Shown here: positions 16,388-23,813 of the stretch, one piece after another
How positions within the stretch are numbered: the first letter of the stretch is position 1
Layout: every line of letters begins with the position of its first letter
Virus record (IMG/VR): IMGVR_UViG_3300032282_003162
Coordinates: 1 to 23,813 of that record
Reading direction: 5' to 3' (one strand)
From: a virus
Length of the DNA: 23,813 nt
Program-made: the position numbers and the translations under genes
Notes under the pieces: generated by a model
Database searches by the model: none
Told to the model about the DNA's origin: nothing
What the model saw: only the letters and a program-made list of their open reading frames with translations

Positions 16388-16897
16388 ATGCCGGAAACCA
16401 AGCCGCCCAAAAAAACGGGCAGACCATCTAAGTACACGCCAGAGCTGGCAGCTGAAATATGCGAAAGACTCAGTAACGGAGAGCCCCTGCGCCAAATATG
16501 CAGGGATGAGCATATGCCGGCATGGACTGCTGTGTATGCGTGGAGTGCGAAAGACGCTGTGCTTTCCGAACGCATCGCGCGAGCAAGGGAAATGGGCTTT
16601 GACGCCATAGCGGAAGAGGCATTGATCATTGCTGACAATCCTAAGTTTGGCATGAAGGAGACGATCGGCAAGGACGGCTCGGTCATTACCCGCGAGGACA
16701 TGCTTGGCCACAGGAAACTGCAGATCGAGACGCGGCTGAAGCTGCTGGCTAAGTGGGACCCGAAGCGCTACGGCGACAAGCTGTCGCTGTCCGGCGACAA
16801 GGAGAACCCAATCCACATCGAGGCCAAAGTTCAGGCTGAACAATACTTCGACGAGCTGCTGGTCAACCTCGAGCTGACCAAGGCGGTCGGTGACTGA
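16388..16897 (+). CDS. terS: Terminase small subunit (Sf6-type)
   Basis: The protein has 169 residues. The N-terminus after a basic stretch is GRPSKYTPELAAEICERLSN, then EPLRQICRDEHMPAWTAVYA, an HTH typical of Sf6 gp1-like small terminases. A central helical part follows (ERIARAREMGFDAIAEEALI, with IADNPKFG) and LGHRKLQIETRLKLLAKWDPKRYGDK is the conserved block toward the C-terminus. The protein recognises the packaging site and regulates the large subunit. Only CGGA and the hairpin arm GGGAA precede the ATG, a weak ribosome site. The large subunit gene starts eight bases before its stop. Confidence 0.9.
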   Translation: MPETKPPKKTGRPSKYTPELAAEICERLSNGEPLRQICRDEHMPAWTAVYAWSAKDAVLSERIARAREMGFDAIAEEALIIADNPKFGMKETIGKDGSVITREDMLGHRKLQIETRLKLLAKWDPKRYGDKLSLSGDKENPIHIEAKVQAEQYFDELLVNLELTKAVGD

Positions 16898-18299
16898 TCT
16901 CAGTGTATTAGCAGACCCGCAGGTACGGGCGCAATTTGAGGCGCTCGACCCGCTATATCGACTAGCGTGGGCGTGGCGCGCTAAATGGCTCAAGAAGGCA
17001 CACAAGCACCAGATCTTGCCTACAGGCGACTGGTGGTCAATCTGGTTGCTTTTGGCGGGTCGTGGTGCGGGCAAGACCAGAACGGCCGCGGAGCAGATCG
17101 GGTGGTGGGCATGGCGACAGCCGAGCACCCGCTGGCTGGTAGGTGCGCCGACGAGCTCGGATGTGAGATCGACTTGCTTTGAGGGCGACTCTGGCCTGCT
17201 GTCGGTGATCCCAGCGCCGCTAATCGAGGATTACAACAAGGCCTTGCACGAGCTCAAGCTGATCAATGGCTCGCTGATTAAAGGCATACCGGCCTCAGAG
17301 CCCGAGCGCTTTCGCGGTCCGCAGTTCCACGGCGCGTGGCTGGATGAGCTGGCTGCGTGGGATTATTTGCAGGAAGCGTGGGATCAGGTGCAGTTTGGCG
17401 TGCGACTGGGCAAGAAGACGCACATTATCTGCACAACGACGCCGAGGCCGAAGGATTTGATTGTCGAGCTGATTGGCCGCGAGGGCGATGATGTCACGGT
17501 CACGACCGCATCAACTTACGCGAACCTCGATAACTTGTCGGAGAATTTCCGTAAGCAGATCTTGAGCTACGAGGGTACGAAATTAGGTCGGCAGGAGATC
17601 TACGCAGAGATCATTGACCCCGAGGATGGGGGGATTGTCAAACGCGATCATTTCAAGCTGTGGCCTTCAGGAAAGGCCTTGCCTAAGTTCGAGTTCATTC
17701 TGCAAAGCTATGACTGCGCGGCCACCGACAAGAACCACAGCGACCCCACGGCGTGCATTACATGGGGCGTGTTCAAGCCGACAGACAACCCGATGTCGGT
17801 GATGATGATTGATGCGTGGCAAGAGAAGCTGCAGTACCCAGACCTGCGGCCAAAGGTGATCGAGGAATACAAGACCAGTTACGGTGAGGGCAAGGAGGGC
17901 AAGCGCGTTGACTTGATCCTCGTGGAGGACAAGAGCGCCGGCATCTCGTTGATCCAAGACCTGCAGCGTGCGCATCTGCCTGTGCGCGCGTACAACCCTG
18001 GCCGAGCCGACAAGACGCAGCGCCTGAACATTGTGTCCAACATCATCGCAGCCGGTCGCGTGTGGGTGCCAGAGTCTGGTGTAAAGAAGGGCTTTGTGCG
18101 TGACTGGGCTGAGGGCGCGATTAGTCAGATCTGTTCATTCCCCGAGTCAACGCATGATGATTTTGTCGATGCGACGACACAGGCTTTGCGATACTTGCGT
18201 GATGCTGGTTGGCTCGACATTGACCCCGAGCGTGCGTATGATGACGACGATGATGATGAGTACACTCGCAAGAAGCGGGTGAATCCTTACGCCGTTTAG
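16890..18299 (+). CDS. terL: Terminase large subunit (ATPase and nuclease)
   Basis: The protein has 469 residues from a GTG inside the end of terS. ATPase domain: Walker A GRGAGKT (57-63), Walker B GAWLDEL (148-154) with D152 and E153, and coupling motif TTTPRP (182-187). RNase H-like nuclease: SYDCAATD (273-280) with D275, VEDKSAG (345-351) with E346/D347, and HDDFVDA (422-428) with D427. All expected acidic residues are present. The C-terminus has a six-aspartate run (451-456) followed by a basic YTRKKRVNPYAV. It drives DNA into the procapsid and cuts concatemers. An ideal AGGAGG for the next gene overlaps its stop. Confidence 0.97.
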   Translation: MTDLSVLADPQVRAQFEALDPLYRLAWAWRAKWLKKAHKHQILPTGDWWSIWLLLAGRGAGKTRTAAEQIGWWAWRQPSTRWLVGAPTSSDVRSTCFEGDSGLLSVIPAPLIEDYNKALHELKLINGSLIKGIPASEPERFRGPQFHGAWLDELAAWDYLQEAWDQVQFGVRLGKKTHIICTTTPRPKDLIVELIGREGDDVTVTTASTYANLDNLSENFRKQILSYEGTKLGRQEIYAEIIDPEDGGIVKRDHFKLWPSGKALPKFEFILQSYDCAATDKNHSDPTACITWGVFKPTDNPMSVMMIDAWQEKLQYPDLRPKVIEEYKTSYGEGKEGKRVDLILVEDKSAGISLIQDLQRAHLPVRAYNPGRADKTQRLNIVSNIIAAGRVWVPESGVKKGFVRDWAEGAISQICSFPESTHDDFVDATTQALRYLRDAGWLDIDPERAYDDDDDDEYTRKKRVNPYAV

Positions 18300-18310: not shown

Positions 18311-21300
18311 TTGCCTAAAGAAATCAAAAAAATACTTAAAGGTGCGGTCAAAGATTATGTTGACCCGCCCACGAAGCATTTAAATGATTGGCAATGGCGA
18401 CAGCTTCAGTCCGTGCAACGCGATGTGCCGGTGACCGAGGTACCTGACTACATTCAAAAAGGCTTTGGCGAGTTCATGTCCGAGCAGGCCAAGCGAGCTG
18501 CAGCCGGCGACCTCACTGCACGAGACCTATTGAAGGCGTACCTAATCACGCAGTCAAGCATTGGCCGTCAAGGGCTGTCTTACAACACAGCGACTAAAGC
18601 AGGCCTCAAGGTTCCCAAGACTGACGAATTAGTTAGACCAGAGGGCGCGTTTGCTACTTGGTTGGGATCAAAGTCTGGCCAGAAGTACCTTGACGCTGCC
18701 ATGAAGGGCGAGCTTGACAAGCAGGCTTTGGCTGAAATCCAAGCGAAGTTTGCGCCGTTTGGGAAGCAAAATGCTTTAGGGCAGTCAATGGAGTATGCGG
18801 CCAATGTCGCGCCCAAGATGGCTGCCGACCTGAACAAGGCGATCACCGGAACGGCGGATGAGTACCGTGATTATGCGGAGCAGCTCAAGGGCATCGCTGG
18901 ATCTAAGTCTGGCTTCATCGGTTCGATGCTTGGCCGCGGCGACCTGCCGACATTTGACGCACGACAGATATACCTGCACACAGCTGGCGAGCCGCTGCCT
19001 ACAGCGACTCCATCGAGCGTGCTTAACCGTGGCAAGGGCTTTGGTGGCCGCGAGGCTGTAGACCGTCTAGCAGCGCGTCAGGCGGCCATGGGATTGGCCA
19101 TCGACCCGTCGCTCGATCCGTTCTATCAGCATCTGACGCACCACACTATTTGGGACAAAATCGGCAACGACCAGACAACACATCAGGATCTAATCGAGGC
19201 CATGAAAAACTACAAAGCCGGCGGTCCTGTTCACATGAAGGATGGCAGCTCGATATTCGACCAGCCATCGACCGAAGAGTTGAAGCAGGCAAGCAAGGCC
19301 GCTTATGGCAAGCAGCGCATGTTTGGAATGACTAGGCCAGAGCAGGCGGCAGAACCGCAGGATCTTGCAACTTTGTCGTCTTATAACCCTACGCTGCGTC
19401 AGTCAATTGCTAAGGGAATAAAGTCTGGCTTGCAGTATCTCGGTGCGCCGAGCAGCCAAGCTCGGAATGTGTCTCACTTGTTAACGGAGCCCGCGGCAAA
19501 TCCAACCGGCTTTGTTTCGCCGCTTGATTTTGTTCCGGTCTTGGGTACGGCGGTCGGACTGCAAGAGGGGCTGCAGAATGCTAAGGAGTCGATGGAGCAG
19601 GGCGACAAGGTTGGTGCGTTGATTGATTTAGCGGTTGGGGTGGCGCCTGGTTCGTTCTCTACGATTGCTGCTGCACCCGCGACGGGTCGGGCATTGAAGC
19701 GTGGCGTGCAGGCTGGTGAACGATATGCAGAGCGCACGCTGCCTGAGATCATGGAACGCGGCGGTCCGCTTGCCGATGCGCTGTCAGGACTTACAAAGGG
19801 CTCACGCAGCCAGATATTCATCGGACCGTCGGCCGCTACATGGGATGCTGCCGCGGCTAAGAAGGCCTACGGCATGGAGCGCGCGGGCAAGACGCCGCTC
19901 GAGATCTGGAAAGAGACCGGCACATTTAAGGCGGCCGATGGTAACTGGCGCCAAGAGATTTCTGATGTGGGCTCACGGTTTAATGAGCCGAAGGACATCA
20001 AGGAAAAGGCTGCTGCTAAAAAGCAGCAAGAACTTTTAAACAGAGAGCGTATCTACGAGAGCAGTCTGCACCCAGACCTTTTCCCGACGCGCTTGGCAGA
20101 GGCGCAGAAAGAGCTGCGTAACCAGAATAAACAGCTGAGGTTCGAGCGCCAGCGTCCGCTTGGGTTGGAGGCAAACCCAGAAACGCAAGGCAATCTAGCA
20201 AGGATTGCGTTAGAGCACCCAGCGCTGTACGAGGCTTATCCGACGCTTGCAAACATTCCGGTGTATCAGGTGAACAAACCGCTGCCCGGCGGCGCTAGTG
20301 CCAATATGGTTGTCACCCGAGGCGCTCGAGAGTCGGCCACAGGGAATTACTTGCCCGAGGTGAAGAACATCAGTTTGTCTCGAGTGCGTAGACCTAGCCA
20401 AGCGCGGAATTACCGTAGTGACACGCTGCACGAGCTGCAACACGCAGTGCAAACGATTGAGGATTGGGCGCCAGGCGGCTCCGTCAACCCCAATAACCCA
20501 GCGGCCATAGAGATATATGAGCGCTTGAAAAACGCGCAACCAGCCGGTTCAGAGCGCCTTACAGATGAAAGGTTAAGGCAAATGGCTGCAAGGGAGGCCT
20601 ACGAGCGCATGGCTGGCGAAGCAGAGTCTCGCGCAACCGAAGCGCGTAAAGACCTTACCGCAGCAGAGCGTCGCGAGATCTTGCCGACTGTTACTTATGC
20701 AACAGATGTGCCGCTCGAGAGACAGATTGTGCAGCAGCCATTCCGTTTTGAAGCACCGGCAACCAGTACACCAGCGCTTGATGCCATGCGCATGAAAGAG
20801 TGGGACGGCAAGGTTGAGGGCATGAAGGAGGGTGGCAAGAAGATTGTTAAGTCTGTTGTTTCATCGGCGATTCAATTGCCGCAGTCACAATCACGCGGGT
20901 TGTCGGCCACTGAAAAACAGGCCTTGAGGTCTATGGGGCTTGGCGTGCCTGGCGTTGACTTCAGCGATGTGATGGACCCAGCTCAAAAGATGCGGTTCTC
21001 AGAGTTGCTTGGCAACATTGGCGCCGAGGGCAAATATCTCAACATCACGCAATCTGATCGCAGCCGAGTGTTTGGTCCGAACAAAGGCGGCGTAGGATTT
21101 TCCGGTTTGCAGCTGACCAGTGTTCCGCATAAAGAGGCGGGTTCTGTATGGGGGCTTGGCAAAGAGGCTCATGCAACCCGCATGATTAACGCCAACACGC
21201 CGGACACTGTTTGGACGACATTCATTGGGTCACCAACGCAGCACATGAGTAACCCAGTAACCGTGCAGCGTATGCTCGAGGCGCATCGAAAGGCTGGTGC

Positions 21301-21919
21301 ATCGCCTGAGCTCGAGGCCAAAATGAATGAGCGCTTGCGTGCCGCGGTCAACCCAAAAACGGGCAAACCAATATTCGATCCAAGCATTGATGTGGCAGAC
21401 CCTAAGGTAATGGATGCCCTAGACACATTCGATCGCAGGAAAGCGTTTGCAGAGGTTCTGAGCGGCAAAGGCGTTGGCGGTCCTAAAAAAGGCGGTTCTG
21501 TCATTGACGCGGCCAGCATTATTCAGGAAGAAACTGATCCTTTATTGTTTGGCGCACCAACCTATGCGGTCGGTCCGAGGGTATTTGAGCTGAACAACAC
21601 AAAGTTTTATCGCCCAGATTTAAACGAGGCGTTCCCTTGGCAGGTTGGCGGAACAGATTATGGTTTGCATGCTGAACCTGTGCCGCTTGAGTTGGCTGCA
21701 CCAACGATTGTTAACAGACTCGCTACGCGAATTGACAAGCGTGGCCGACTGATGCCGGTTACGCACAAGGATCTAACCGCTAACACTCCGCGTGAGTTAA
21801 TTAGCCATGAATACTTGATGAACCTATCGAACGAAGGTTACAAGCATGGCGGCGAAGTGCACATGGCCGATGGTGGCATTACCTCTGATGACCTAATCGT
21901 TGAAGAAAAGGCGCTCTGA
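18311..21919 (+). CDS. Giant polyvalent phage protein with HELQH metallopeptidase motif (1202 aa)
   Basis: The TTG start at 18311 has a perfect AGGAGG at seven bases; no ATG does better. About 1-290: helical, with GDLPTFDARQIYLH and LTHHTIWDKIG. Residues 301-312: YKAGGPVHMKDG, a linker motif repeated near the end (GGEVHMADGG, 1180-1189). About 390-460: hydrophobic small-residue stretch (LDFVPVLGTAVGLQ, LIDLAVGVAPG). About 640-810: the conserved part, with NISLSRVRR, then SDTLHELQHAVQ containing HExxH (H707, E708, H711), followed by helices with AREAYERMAGEAESRATEAR. This matches a metallopeptidase-like domain of large polyvalent proteins. About 880-1200: GVPGVDFSDVMD, TVWTTFIGSPTQHMSN and more of unknown fold. 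Probably packaged and delivered into the host; function inferred. Confidence 0.8.
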   Translation: MPKEIKKILKGAVKDYVDPPTKHLNDWQWRQLQSVQRDVPVTEVPDYIQKGFGEFMSEQAKRAAAGDLTARDLLKAYLITQSSIGRQGLSYNTATKAGLKVPKTDELVRPEGAFATWLGSKSGQKYLDAAMKGELDKQALAEIQAKFAPFGKQNALGQSMEYAANVAPKMAADLNKAITGTADEYRDYAEQLKGIAGSKSGFIGSMLGRGDLPTFDARQIYLHTAGEPLPTATPSSVLNRGKGFGGREAVDRLAARQAAMGLAIDPSLDPFYQHLTHHTIWDKIGNDQTTHQDLIEAMKNYKAGGPVHMKDGSSIFDQPSTEELKQASKAAYGKQRMFGMTRPEQAAEPQDLATLSSYNPTLRQSIAKGIKSGLQYLGAPSSQARNVSHLLTEPAANPTGFVSPLDFVPVLGTAVGLQEGLQNAKESMEQGDKVGALIDLAVGVAPGSFSTIAAAPATGRALKRGVQAGERYAERTLPEIMERGGPLADALSGLTKGSRSQIFIGPSAATWDAAAAKKAYGMERAGKTPLEIWKETGTFKAADGNWRQEISDVGSRFNEPKDIKEKAAAKKQQELLNRERIYESSLHPDLFPTRLAEAQKELRNQNKQLRFERQRPLGLEANPETQGNLARIALEHPALYEAYPTLANIPVYQVNKPLPGGASANMVVTRGARESATGNYLPEVKNISLSRVRRPSQARNYRSDTLHELQHAVQTIEDWAPGGSVNPNNPAAIEIYERLKNAQPAGSERLTDERLRQMAAREAYERMAGEAESRATEARKDLTAAERREILPTVTYATDVPLERQIVQQPFRFEAPATSTPALDAMRMKEWDGKVEGMKEGGKKIVKSVVSSAIQLPQSQSRGLSATEKQALRSMGLGVPGVDFSDVMDPAQKMRFSELLGNIGAEGKYLNITQSDRSRVFGPNKGGVGFSGLQLTSVPHKEAGSVWGLGKEAHATRMINANTPDTVWTTFIGSPTQHMSNPVTVQRMLEAHRKAGASPELEAKMNERLRAAVNPKTGKPIFDPSIDVADPKVMDALDTFDRRKAFAEVLSGKGVGGPKKGGSVIDAASIIQEETDPLLFGAPTYAVGPRVFELNNTKFYRPDLNEAFPWQVGGTDYGLHAEPVPLELAAPTIVNRLATRIDKRGRLMPVTHKDLTANTPRELISHEYLMNLSNEGYKHGGEVHMADGGITSDDLIVEEKAL

Positions 21920-23813
21920 TGGCCGGCTTAAAGAACGAAGCAAGGAGTCTGATACGCAAGGCGTTAGAGCCGGCGACATCTGCACGGCCATTCTATTCGC
22001 CAATTGACCAAGCGATTGCCGAGATCACGCAGGGCAAGGGCACCGGCCAGCAAATGCTTGCGGAGATTTTGAAGACAAAGGGCGCAGCTAAAGAGCTGAA
22101 GGATCGTCCTGCAATCAAGAAGGCGTTAGAGCAGCCGAAGGTGACCAAGCAAGAGCTGGAGCGTGTGGCTGCAGAGCACCCAGCGCCGCAGGTTGAAGAG
22201 AATGTGTTAAGCGGGCAGTTTTTCGATGAGAGACACCCCAAGTTGCCTACTGATGGCAGATTAGAGCTTGTAGAAAATCCAGAAACATTTGGCTTTGAAA
22301 AATATCCATATGGCGTAGTTGATAAACAAACAGGCGACATCATTGCTTATGGCAACGATAAAGAGGATGCGATCTTAGACGCCTACTCTGGTAATCCCAA
22401 GTACTGGGGTGGCGGTACACAATATGCGCAATACACAATACCGCATGGCGAGAACTATCGTGAGGTATTGCTCAAGATCCCAAAAGGTGAAGGCGACGAT
22501 TTCAAAACCCAACATTTTGGGGGCGAACCCAACATCCTTGCCCACGCTCGCGTGTCAGATCGCACTGGCCTAAACGGTGAGAAGATCCTGCATGTGGAAG
22601 AGGTGCAGTCCGACTGGCATCAGGCTGGCCGCAAGAAGGGGTATCGGAGTGGAGACTCAGAAAAGGCTTACTCAGATTATCTTGAAGACCTCAAGGCTCG
22701 CGTCAAAGAGGATATTAAAAAAACAATGATGCAAGAGGGCGTTGCCGAAGAAAAGGCTTTGTTTCTTGGTGAGCGCATGGCGGAACGGATGTCTCAAGAT
22801 CCGCGCAAATTAGCTAATTATCTTGATGAAGGCGACAGGCAAATGGCCTTGCATCAACAGCGAATAAAAGATCGCAGCGCCATCCCCGACGCTCCCTTCA
22901 AGCAGAACTGGCACGAGCTGGTGATGAAGCGCCTGCTCGATGATGCTGCACGCAATGGCTACGACAAGGTGGTGATCACGCCCGGAGCGGAGCAGGCGAA
23001 GCGGTATGACCTGAGCAAGCAGGTTGAAGAACTGAATTACAAAAGAAATGCTGATGGCACATATCAACTCTCAGCACAAGCTGGTGGTCGTGGAAACATG
23101 ATTGGCGAAGCTCTTAGTGAGTCAGAGCTTGAGCAGCATGTTGGAAAAGATGTTACTCAAAAAATCATTAACAATGAAGGATTTAATAGAAACTTTGGCG
23201 GTAATGGTTCGGTGTCTCAACCTGAAAATATTTGGAAGGGTTTATCTGGTCTTGATTTACAAGTCGGCGGCGAGGGCATGCGTGGCTTCTATGACCAGAT
23301 CCTGCCTTCATATTTAAACAATTACGGCAAGCCATATGGAGCCAAAGTCGGCACATATCAGATGCCCGATGTTGAGACGCCGCTTCACTCGTTCGACATC
23401 ACCCCGCAGATGCGCGAGGACATCATTGGCAAAGGACTGCCGCTCTATCAGGTAGCTCCTGTAGGGATTGGTGCAGGCGCTGCGATGCAGGAAGCGGAGC
23501 CGACCGAGTACGCCGGTGGTGGGATCATCAAGAAGGCTGGGAAATTCATCGGCAACGCAGCACAAAGCTCTGGTATGGCGCGTCCTGTGACCGCGACAAA
23601 AAACCTGTTAACCACGCAAGACTTTCACACCTCTCTGGATGATCGTATCCGCCAAGGCGTGGCTGAAAAGCAGAATCTAATCGAGTCAATGCCGTTCAAG
23701 TACGACAAGGGTCAGCGCGTGTTCACGGAAGACAGCGCACGCAAGAACAGATTGCCCTACGAAATTCTGGATCGCACGCTGTACGGCAACCAGCCTATGC
23801 GAGCCGATCATCC
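21919..23813 (+). CDS. Large polyvalent phage protein with EEVQSDWHQ module (partial, 3' end outside)
   Basis: The ATG overlaps the previous TGA (TGATG), and the frame is open to the window end: 631 codons without a stop. Residues about 24-85 (FYSPIDQAIAEITQGKGTGQ, then VTKQELERV) form a widespread N-terminal module with KGTGxQML. A second module runs from about 125 to 490: YGVVDKQTGDIIAYG, EEVQSDWHQAGRKKGY (227-242), PDAPFKQNWHELVMKRLL (323-340), YDKVVITPGAEQAKRYDLSK, LSGLDLQVGGEGMRGFYD (442-459) and YGAKVG. After it come YAGGGIIKKAGK (531-542) and a region with PFKYDKGQRVFTEDSARKN. These blocks recur in many phages as part of multi-domain proteins with unknown activity. It is probably delivered with phage DNA. 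Confidence 0.82.
   Translation, partial: MAGLKNEARSLIRKALEPATSARPFYSPIDQAIAEITQGKGTGQQMLAEILKTKGAAKELKDRPAIKKALEQPKVTKQELERVAAEHPAPQVEENVLSGQFFDERHPKLPTDGRLELVENPETFGFEKYPYGVVDKQTGDIIAYGNDKEDAILDAYSGNPKYWGGGTQYAQYTIPHGENYREVLLKIPKGEGDDFKTQHFGGEPNILAHARVSDRTGLNGEKILHVEEVQSDWHQAGRKKGYRSGDSEKAYSDYLEDLKARVKEDIKKTMMQEGVAEEKALFLGERMAERMSQDPRKLANYLDEGDRQMALHQQRIKDRSAIPDAPFKQNWHELVMKRLLDDAARNGYDKVVITPGAEQAKRYDLSKQVEELNYKRNADGTYQLSAQAGGRGNMIGEALSESELEQHVGKDVTQKIINNEGFNRNFGGNGSVSQPENIWKGLSGLDLQVGGEGMRGFYDQILPSYLNNYGKPYGAKVGTYQMPDVETPLHSFDITPQMREDIIGKGLPLYQVAPVGIGAGAAMQEAEPTEYAGGGIIKKAGKFIGNAAQSSGMARPVTATKNLLTTQDFHTSLDDRIRQGVAEKQNLIESMPFKYDKGQRVFTEDSARKNRLPYEILDRTLYGNQPMRADH

Follow-up and report, generated by a model that had tools for sequence, protein, structure and literature searches.

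The window, the 23,813-nucleotide stretch of viral DNA analysed here, raises the question of what a peptidase-like motif is doing inside a 1202-aa protein encoded directly after terL. The initial annotation had read the residues LHELQHAVQ, with H707, E708 and H711, as a zinc-peptidase-type domain within a large polyvalent phage protein. The residues are indeed present, with H707, E708 and H711 at nt 20429-20443, and this reading of them is supported by conservation, by the predicted fold and by the layout of the protein. From the H and E content of the 1202-aa protein, the chance expectation of HExxH is 0.026. The frame begins 12 nt after the terL stop codon, at a TTG start with TTAGGAGGCGC in front of it, and the following features were recognized in it and on either side.

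16890..18299, + strand: terL, terminase large subunit, directly upstream of the 1202-aa gene (Pfam Terminase_6N 5e-23, Terminase_6C 3e-9; PHROG terminase large subunit)
18311..21919, + strand: polyvalent protein with peptidase, 1202 aa (open frame with a strong Shine-Dalgarno-like AGGAGG ahead of its TTG start)
18344..19219, + strand: module 1 (aa 12-303), exchangeable (blastp 53-64% identity at differing positions)
19220..19249, + strand: GGPVHMKDGS (aa 304-313), a degenerate copy of the GGxVHMAxGG border motif
19352..19750, + strand: hydrophobic Gly/Ala-rich module (aa 348-480; blastp to the N termini of L181, L208, L243 and L239)
19814..19969, + strand: LPD23 (aa 502-553), N-terminal part of the peptidase unit (Pfam PF18838, E 1.7e-9; peptidase always next)
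19988..20152, + strand: predicted long helix pair joining LPD23 to the peptidase core (aa 560-585 and 592-614; AlphaFold2, per-block pLDDT 93-98)
20186..20746, + strand: zincin-like metallopeptidase core (aa 626-812; alignments A1 and A3, AlphaFold2 model)
20429..20443, + strand: HExxH (H707, E708, H711), invariant in 80/80 relatives and in 57/57 LPD23-selected loci
20600..20647, + strand: Y764 to R779, YxxxxGExExR, with the probable third zinc ligand E770 (Y764, G769, E770, R774 and R779 invariant in 80/80)
20966..21847, + strand: C-terminal module (aa 886-1179), alpha/beta, no known fold (AlphaFold2 pLDDT 82.5; no significant PDB match)
21848..21877, + strand: GGEVHMADGG border motif (aa 1180-1189), predicted disordered
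21919..23811, + strand: second slot protein, P0002, running off the window (its start overlaps the stop of the first slot protein, TGATG)

In blastp comparisons module 1 is N-terminal in the window protein, C-terminal in locus L062 and internal in L175 and L177, and the hydrophobic Gly/Ala-rich module occurs separately, at the N terminus of other proteins of the terL-portal slot. The hydrophobic segment (19352-19750) reads LDFVPVLGTAVG... and might be a membrane-active part. The C-terminal module has a confident predicted fold and 14 relatives, in varied positions; a PDB fold search with it returned nothing significant. Homologues of P0002 occupy the equivalent place in L011, L168, L169 and L172; P0002 itself matches part of a PHROG named endolysin (phrog_7348, E 7e-13) and has no Pfam domain. 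A C-terminal tail, SDDLIVEERPL or THAHHLxIEERPL (21878-21919 in the window), is common to first slot proteins whose bodies differ; it is found at the C termini in L011, L168, L169, L172 and L173, and in L020, L235, L266 and L320. The EER/EEK codons of this tail may double as the Shine-Dalgarno sequence of the next gene, and the remainder could be a packaging tag.

Relatives of the peptidase were confirmed in IMG/VR (438, of which 80 were retained) and in bacterial genomes (154, of which 80 were retained), the latter on contigs of very different bacteria. Single-sequence searches of IMG/VR with P0004 and P0001 returned no relatives; alignment and TerL queries found them. Among phage records, tblastn placed relatives at 26-33% identity in F116/H66-like Pseudomonas phages, phage AF, EBPR podovirus 3 and metagenomic phages, and an alignment of one relative of each kind gave an invariant core of HExQHxxQ with a downstream GEx[ED]xR. 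HExQH is kept in all 80 rows of alignment A3, in which H707, E708, Q710, H711, Q714, G722, Y764, G769, E770, R774 and R779 never vary. Since homologues in A3 were fetched partly by HExxH patterns (HE[ILV]QH), a set biased for conservation of that motif, conservation was retested on loci selected by LPD23. Homologues fetched in this way had not lost HExxH: it was kept in all 57 copies with enough DNA, and 8 further full domains among loci fetched by TerL or the GG motif were likewise intact. The initial annotation had also placed a third ligand in a downstream E-rich segment (REAYERMAGEAESRA), and the invariant residue there proved to be E770, the leading E of GExE. The motif's second glutamate (772) is absent in L041, L044 and L046; because relatives that lose it never lose the first, E770 is the probable third ligand. 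In two relatives a second HExxH lies about 200 aa past the first, at aa 2493 in H66 gp60 (L006) and aa 1007 in the phage AF protein (L005) (HEMVH and HELGH), giving two metallopeptidase-like sites per protein.

The same LPD23-selected loci revealed a partner for the peptidase. In loci fetched by LPD23 alone, the peptidase follows in frame in 57/57 distinct copies with enough downstream DNA; conversely, LPD23 is present in 146 of the 169 peptidase proteins, separated from the peptidase match by a median of 25 aa. In bacterial genomes, LPD23 sampling gave too few new cases for a count. Candidate "LPD23 only" proteins look like pieces ending just before the peptidase, which in L118 lies in the next, overlapping frame; a partial match in L167 has a similar look. 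That LPD23 belongs to the peptidase unit had been overlooked in the initial annotation. LPD23 and the two long helices may thus constitute the N-terminal half of the peptidase, forming a unit of about 310 aa (aa ~500-812), a reading that belongs to, and shares the even standing of, the overall explanation proposed below.

The predicted structure agrees with this arrangement. AlphaFold2, run on 80 sequences that excluded three rows from annotated phage records, gave a confident joint model of LPD23, the two long helices and the peptidase core (pLDDT 86, pTM 0.83). As anticipated for a zinc site, HExxH falls within a single predicted helix spanning aa 701-717, and E770 within a subsequent one, aa 768-778; strands are predicted at aa 650-654, 678-681 and 686-690, with helices before them, in a model whose PDB matches are not significant. 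The PDB fold search with the peptidase unit gave as its top match the catalytic domain of anthrax lethal factor, at a nonsignificant E of 0.33. Against a viral model library there were 15 matches with E < 0.001, most of the alignments spanning the whole 340-aa unit, and the named ones being mostly large polyvalent proteins. Profile comparison returned a weak match to IrrE in the PDB (E 0.03) that covers the strand region and HExxH. DUF6782, a "putative metallopeptidase," was matched by 41/80 relatives (best 9e-10) and Peptidase_M78 by 12/80 at E<=0.1 (best 3e-5); the window protein itself matched neither at E 0.1. Neither Pfam nor NCBIfam gave a match to its HExxH region as such; the one Pfam domain is LPD23, at 37.7 bits against a curated cut-off of 27. 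A single-protein sequence search of solved structures yielded one match, judged to be due to chance. Overall, assignment to a peptidase fold family is probable.

The window domain belongs to a kind already known, the zincin-like metallopeptidases that Iyer et al. described in 2017 in injected phage polyvalent proteins (PMC5512222). As in that class, HExxH lies on a predicted helix and is followed by a helix bearing the probable third-ligand glutamate, within large phage proteins in which several unrelated modules are fused and which are encoded near virion and other late genes. The window family differs in its constant LPD23 partner, in its common stand-alone copies and in being optional between sister phages. 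LPD23 goes unmentioned in the main text of Iyer et al. (PMC5512222), and in Pfam (PF18838, matched above the gathering score by aa 502-553) it is a separate domain of unknown function, whereas in the window family it always precedes a peptidase. The likeness to DUF6782 and to Peptidase_M78 (IrrE/ImmA) consists of weak matches of some family members to those profiles; unlike IrrE/ImmA, the window protein has no HTH domain that we could find, and its gene context is that of phage late genes. The C1 domain of the N4 virion RNA polymerase and the C-terminal MPTase of P1 DdrB are likened to it from descriptions in the literature, as HExxH domains in virion-packaged giant proteins, although neither an RNA polymerase nor a ParB domain turned up in the window protein; Iyer et al. 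drew a link between lethal factor and the peptidase domain of N4 vRNAP (PMC5512222). The large virion protein of Pseudomonas phages H66/F116 (H66 gp60) has a homologous peptidase region with HELQHAIQ and GEVEAR, but is 3787 aa long, with its second HExxH further on and other surrounding modules.

In phages with TerL 59-92% identical, the interval between terL and the portal gene (the latter identified by PHROG in L008 and L194) encodes one large protein or two, built of modules that vary in kind and in order; a segment of P0002, for example, is found in the first slot protein of L011 and L008. The peptidase unit is present in 6 of 34 nonredundant loci selected by TerL, and whole records of up to 55 kb from phages with related TerL lack it. 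In the sister locus L169 (TerL 91% identical), window aa 12-477 and 815-1190 are kept at 64% and 55% identity, approximately 27 aa stand in place of the 337 aa of the window protein, and no peptidase occurs within the 8.5-kb record. Judged from these comparisons, the peptidase unit is optional and exchangeable among phages with similar TerL.

The unit also occurs by itself. Among 180 peptidase frames, 47 are <=480 aa and consist of LPD23 and peptidase with little else; these stand-alone proteins, of 271-470 aa, account for roughly one in four of the homologues found. EBPR podovirus 3 gp3, with 335 aa, is an example of a stand-alone relative. Terminase large subunit and portal are their PHROG neighbours in L017, L055, L050, L068, L078, L036 and L043, a major head protein adjoins the copy in L013, and TerL and/or portal lie <=4 kb away in 24/37 stand-alone viral loci with flanks.

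The motif GGxVHMAxGG follows the C-terminal module of the window protein, in a predicted disordered tail. A DNA pattern scan found it in at least 120 IMG/VR stretches, and the in-frame copies listed are mostly in large slot-type or tape-measure-like proteins. It recurs at the borders of modules in polyvalent slot proteins, in L011, L062, L215 and many others, and in tape-measure-like proteins it stands just before RDRVPAMLEPGEYV. The string GGEVHMA was not found in the literature searched. In 124 proteins, 138 of 161 interior motifs (86%) lie <=20 aa from an alignment edge, where about 60 would be expected for random positions and where 40% of the other GG dipeptides of the same proteins lie. 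The motif as a cis substrate of the peptidase was considered and dropped, as 16 of the 34 TerL-selected loci have it without a peptidase; its presence is independent of the peptidase. Tentatively, in a reading that we hold slightly less probable than its negation, the terL-portal slot may be a hypervariable cargo bay of one or two giant proteins built of swapped modules, their junctions marked by disordered GGxVHMAxGG, which could be a handle for recombination, a linker or a site of cleavage; the LPD23 peptidase would be one interchangeable payload, found also as a gene by itself, in which LPD23 would be an integral half that regulates the enzyme or grips its substrate.

The initial annotation had further proposed that the enzyme is carried in the virion. 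The 3787-aa H66 protein is noted in RefSeq as virion detected (mass spectrometry), and this record note, together with the precedent of the N4 and P1 proteins (PMC5512222), suggests by homology that the same may hold in the window phage. The H66 homologue is distant, with a peptidase region about 33% identical and a different architecture, and the virion evidence for it is one annotation note. This part of the proposal is thus supported by homology only.

At the level of sequence, the presence of the domain, its conservation, its pairing with LPD23, its optional and stand-alone occurrence and its gene position are established. Rather than a peptidase, HExxH might mark another metal enzyme (e.g., a hydroxylase of the alpha-ketoglutarate-dependent HExxH type) or a zinc site with a structural role: the fold match to peptidases is not significant, and the authors of a study of N4 vRNAP mention for its HExxH domain not only zincins but also radical SAM enzymes, with citation of fused alphaKG-HExxH proteins (PMC12633501). 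Since the conserved E follows HExxH in gluzincin order and the profile matches go to peptidase families M78 and DUF6782, this seems to us very improbable. Given a peptidase, action on its own polyprotein, as the initial annotation had suggested, would mean that it cuts its carrier into modules before packaging or after delivery. Its embedding in a multimodule protein with GGxVHMAxGG between modules fits this idea, as does P1 DdrB, which is processed and for which Iyer et al. propose self-cutting (PMC5512222). The idea is weakened by the many homologues that have no polyprotein or other module around them, by L169, which keeps the neighbours and border motifs without a peptidase, by the TerL-selected loci with the motif alone, and by N4 vRNAP, which is packaged uncut with its HExxH domain (PMC5512222). 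Mainly self-processing is therefore distinctly unlikely, because the peptidase often has nothing to release and its neighbours persist without it.

Two roles in trans remain, virion maturation and action on a host protein after delivery. A morphogenetic peptidase would act while the head is being assembled, trimming the portal, the scaffold or internal proteins of the virion, as might be expected from the stand-alone copies that adjoin terL and portal or, in L013, lie near a major head protein gene; these positions count against our preferred explanation to the extent that they fit a head-assembly role equally well. However, the scarcity of the peptidase among loci with related TerL, and whole contigs without it, indicate that it is dispensable for head assembly in this group, and we regard a morphogenetic role as unlikely. 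Its patchy occurrence in phages whose packaging genes are alike favors action on a host protein over virion maturation.

The explanation that we prefer, and to which we would give an even chance, is that of a swappable LPD23-peptidase unit packaged in the head, delivered with the DNA and cutting in trans, most likely a host protein. In the active site, Zn2+ would be held by H707, H711 and E770, with E708 as the general base and Y764 and R774 presumably lining the pocket. The unit would be cargo, a swappable insert in the modular proteins of the terL-portal slot, and the protein bearing it would be packaged in the phage head and enter the cell along with the DNA. The protein that the peptidase cleaves there would not be its own carrier; the likeliest substrate is a host protein encountered at an early stage of infection.

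The polyvalent proteins of phages rank with the most poorly understood cargo of virions. What these data add to the known class is a fused LPD23 unit, relatives that stand alone or lack the cassette, and marked module borders. With LPD23 and peptidase as one unit, the stand-alone forms of ~270-470 aa offer a small protein to express, to assay for activity and to solve structurally. A sister phage lacking the unit speaks against the leading idea, in which such peptidases exist to cut their own carriers, and it provides a natural comparison for finding the real substrate.
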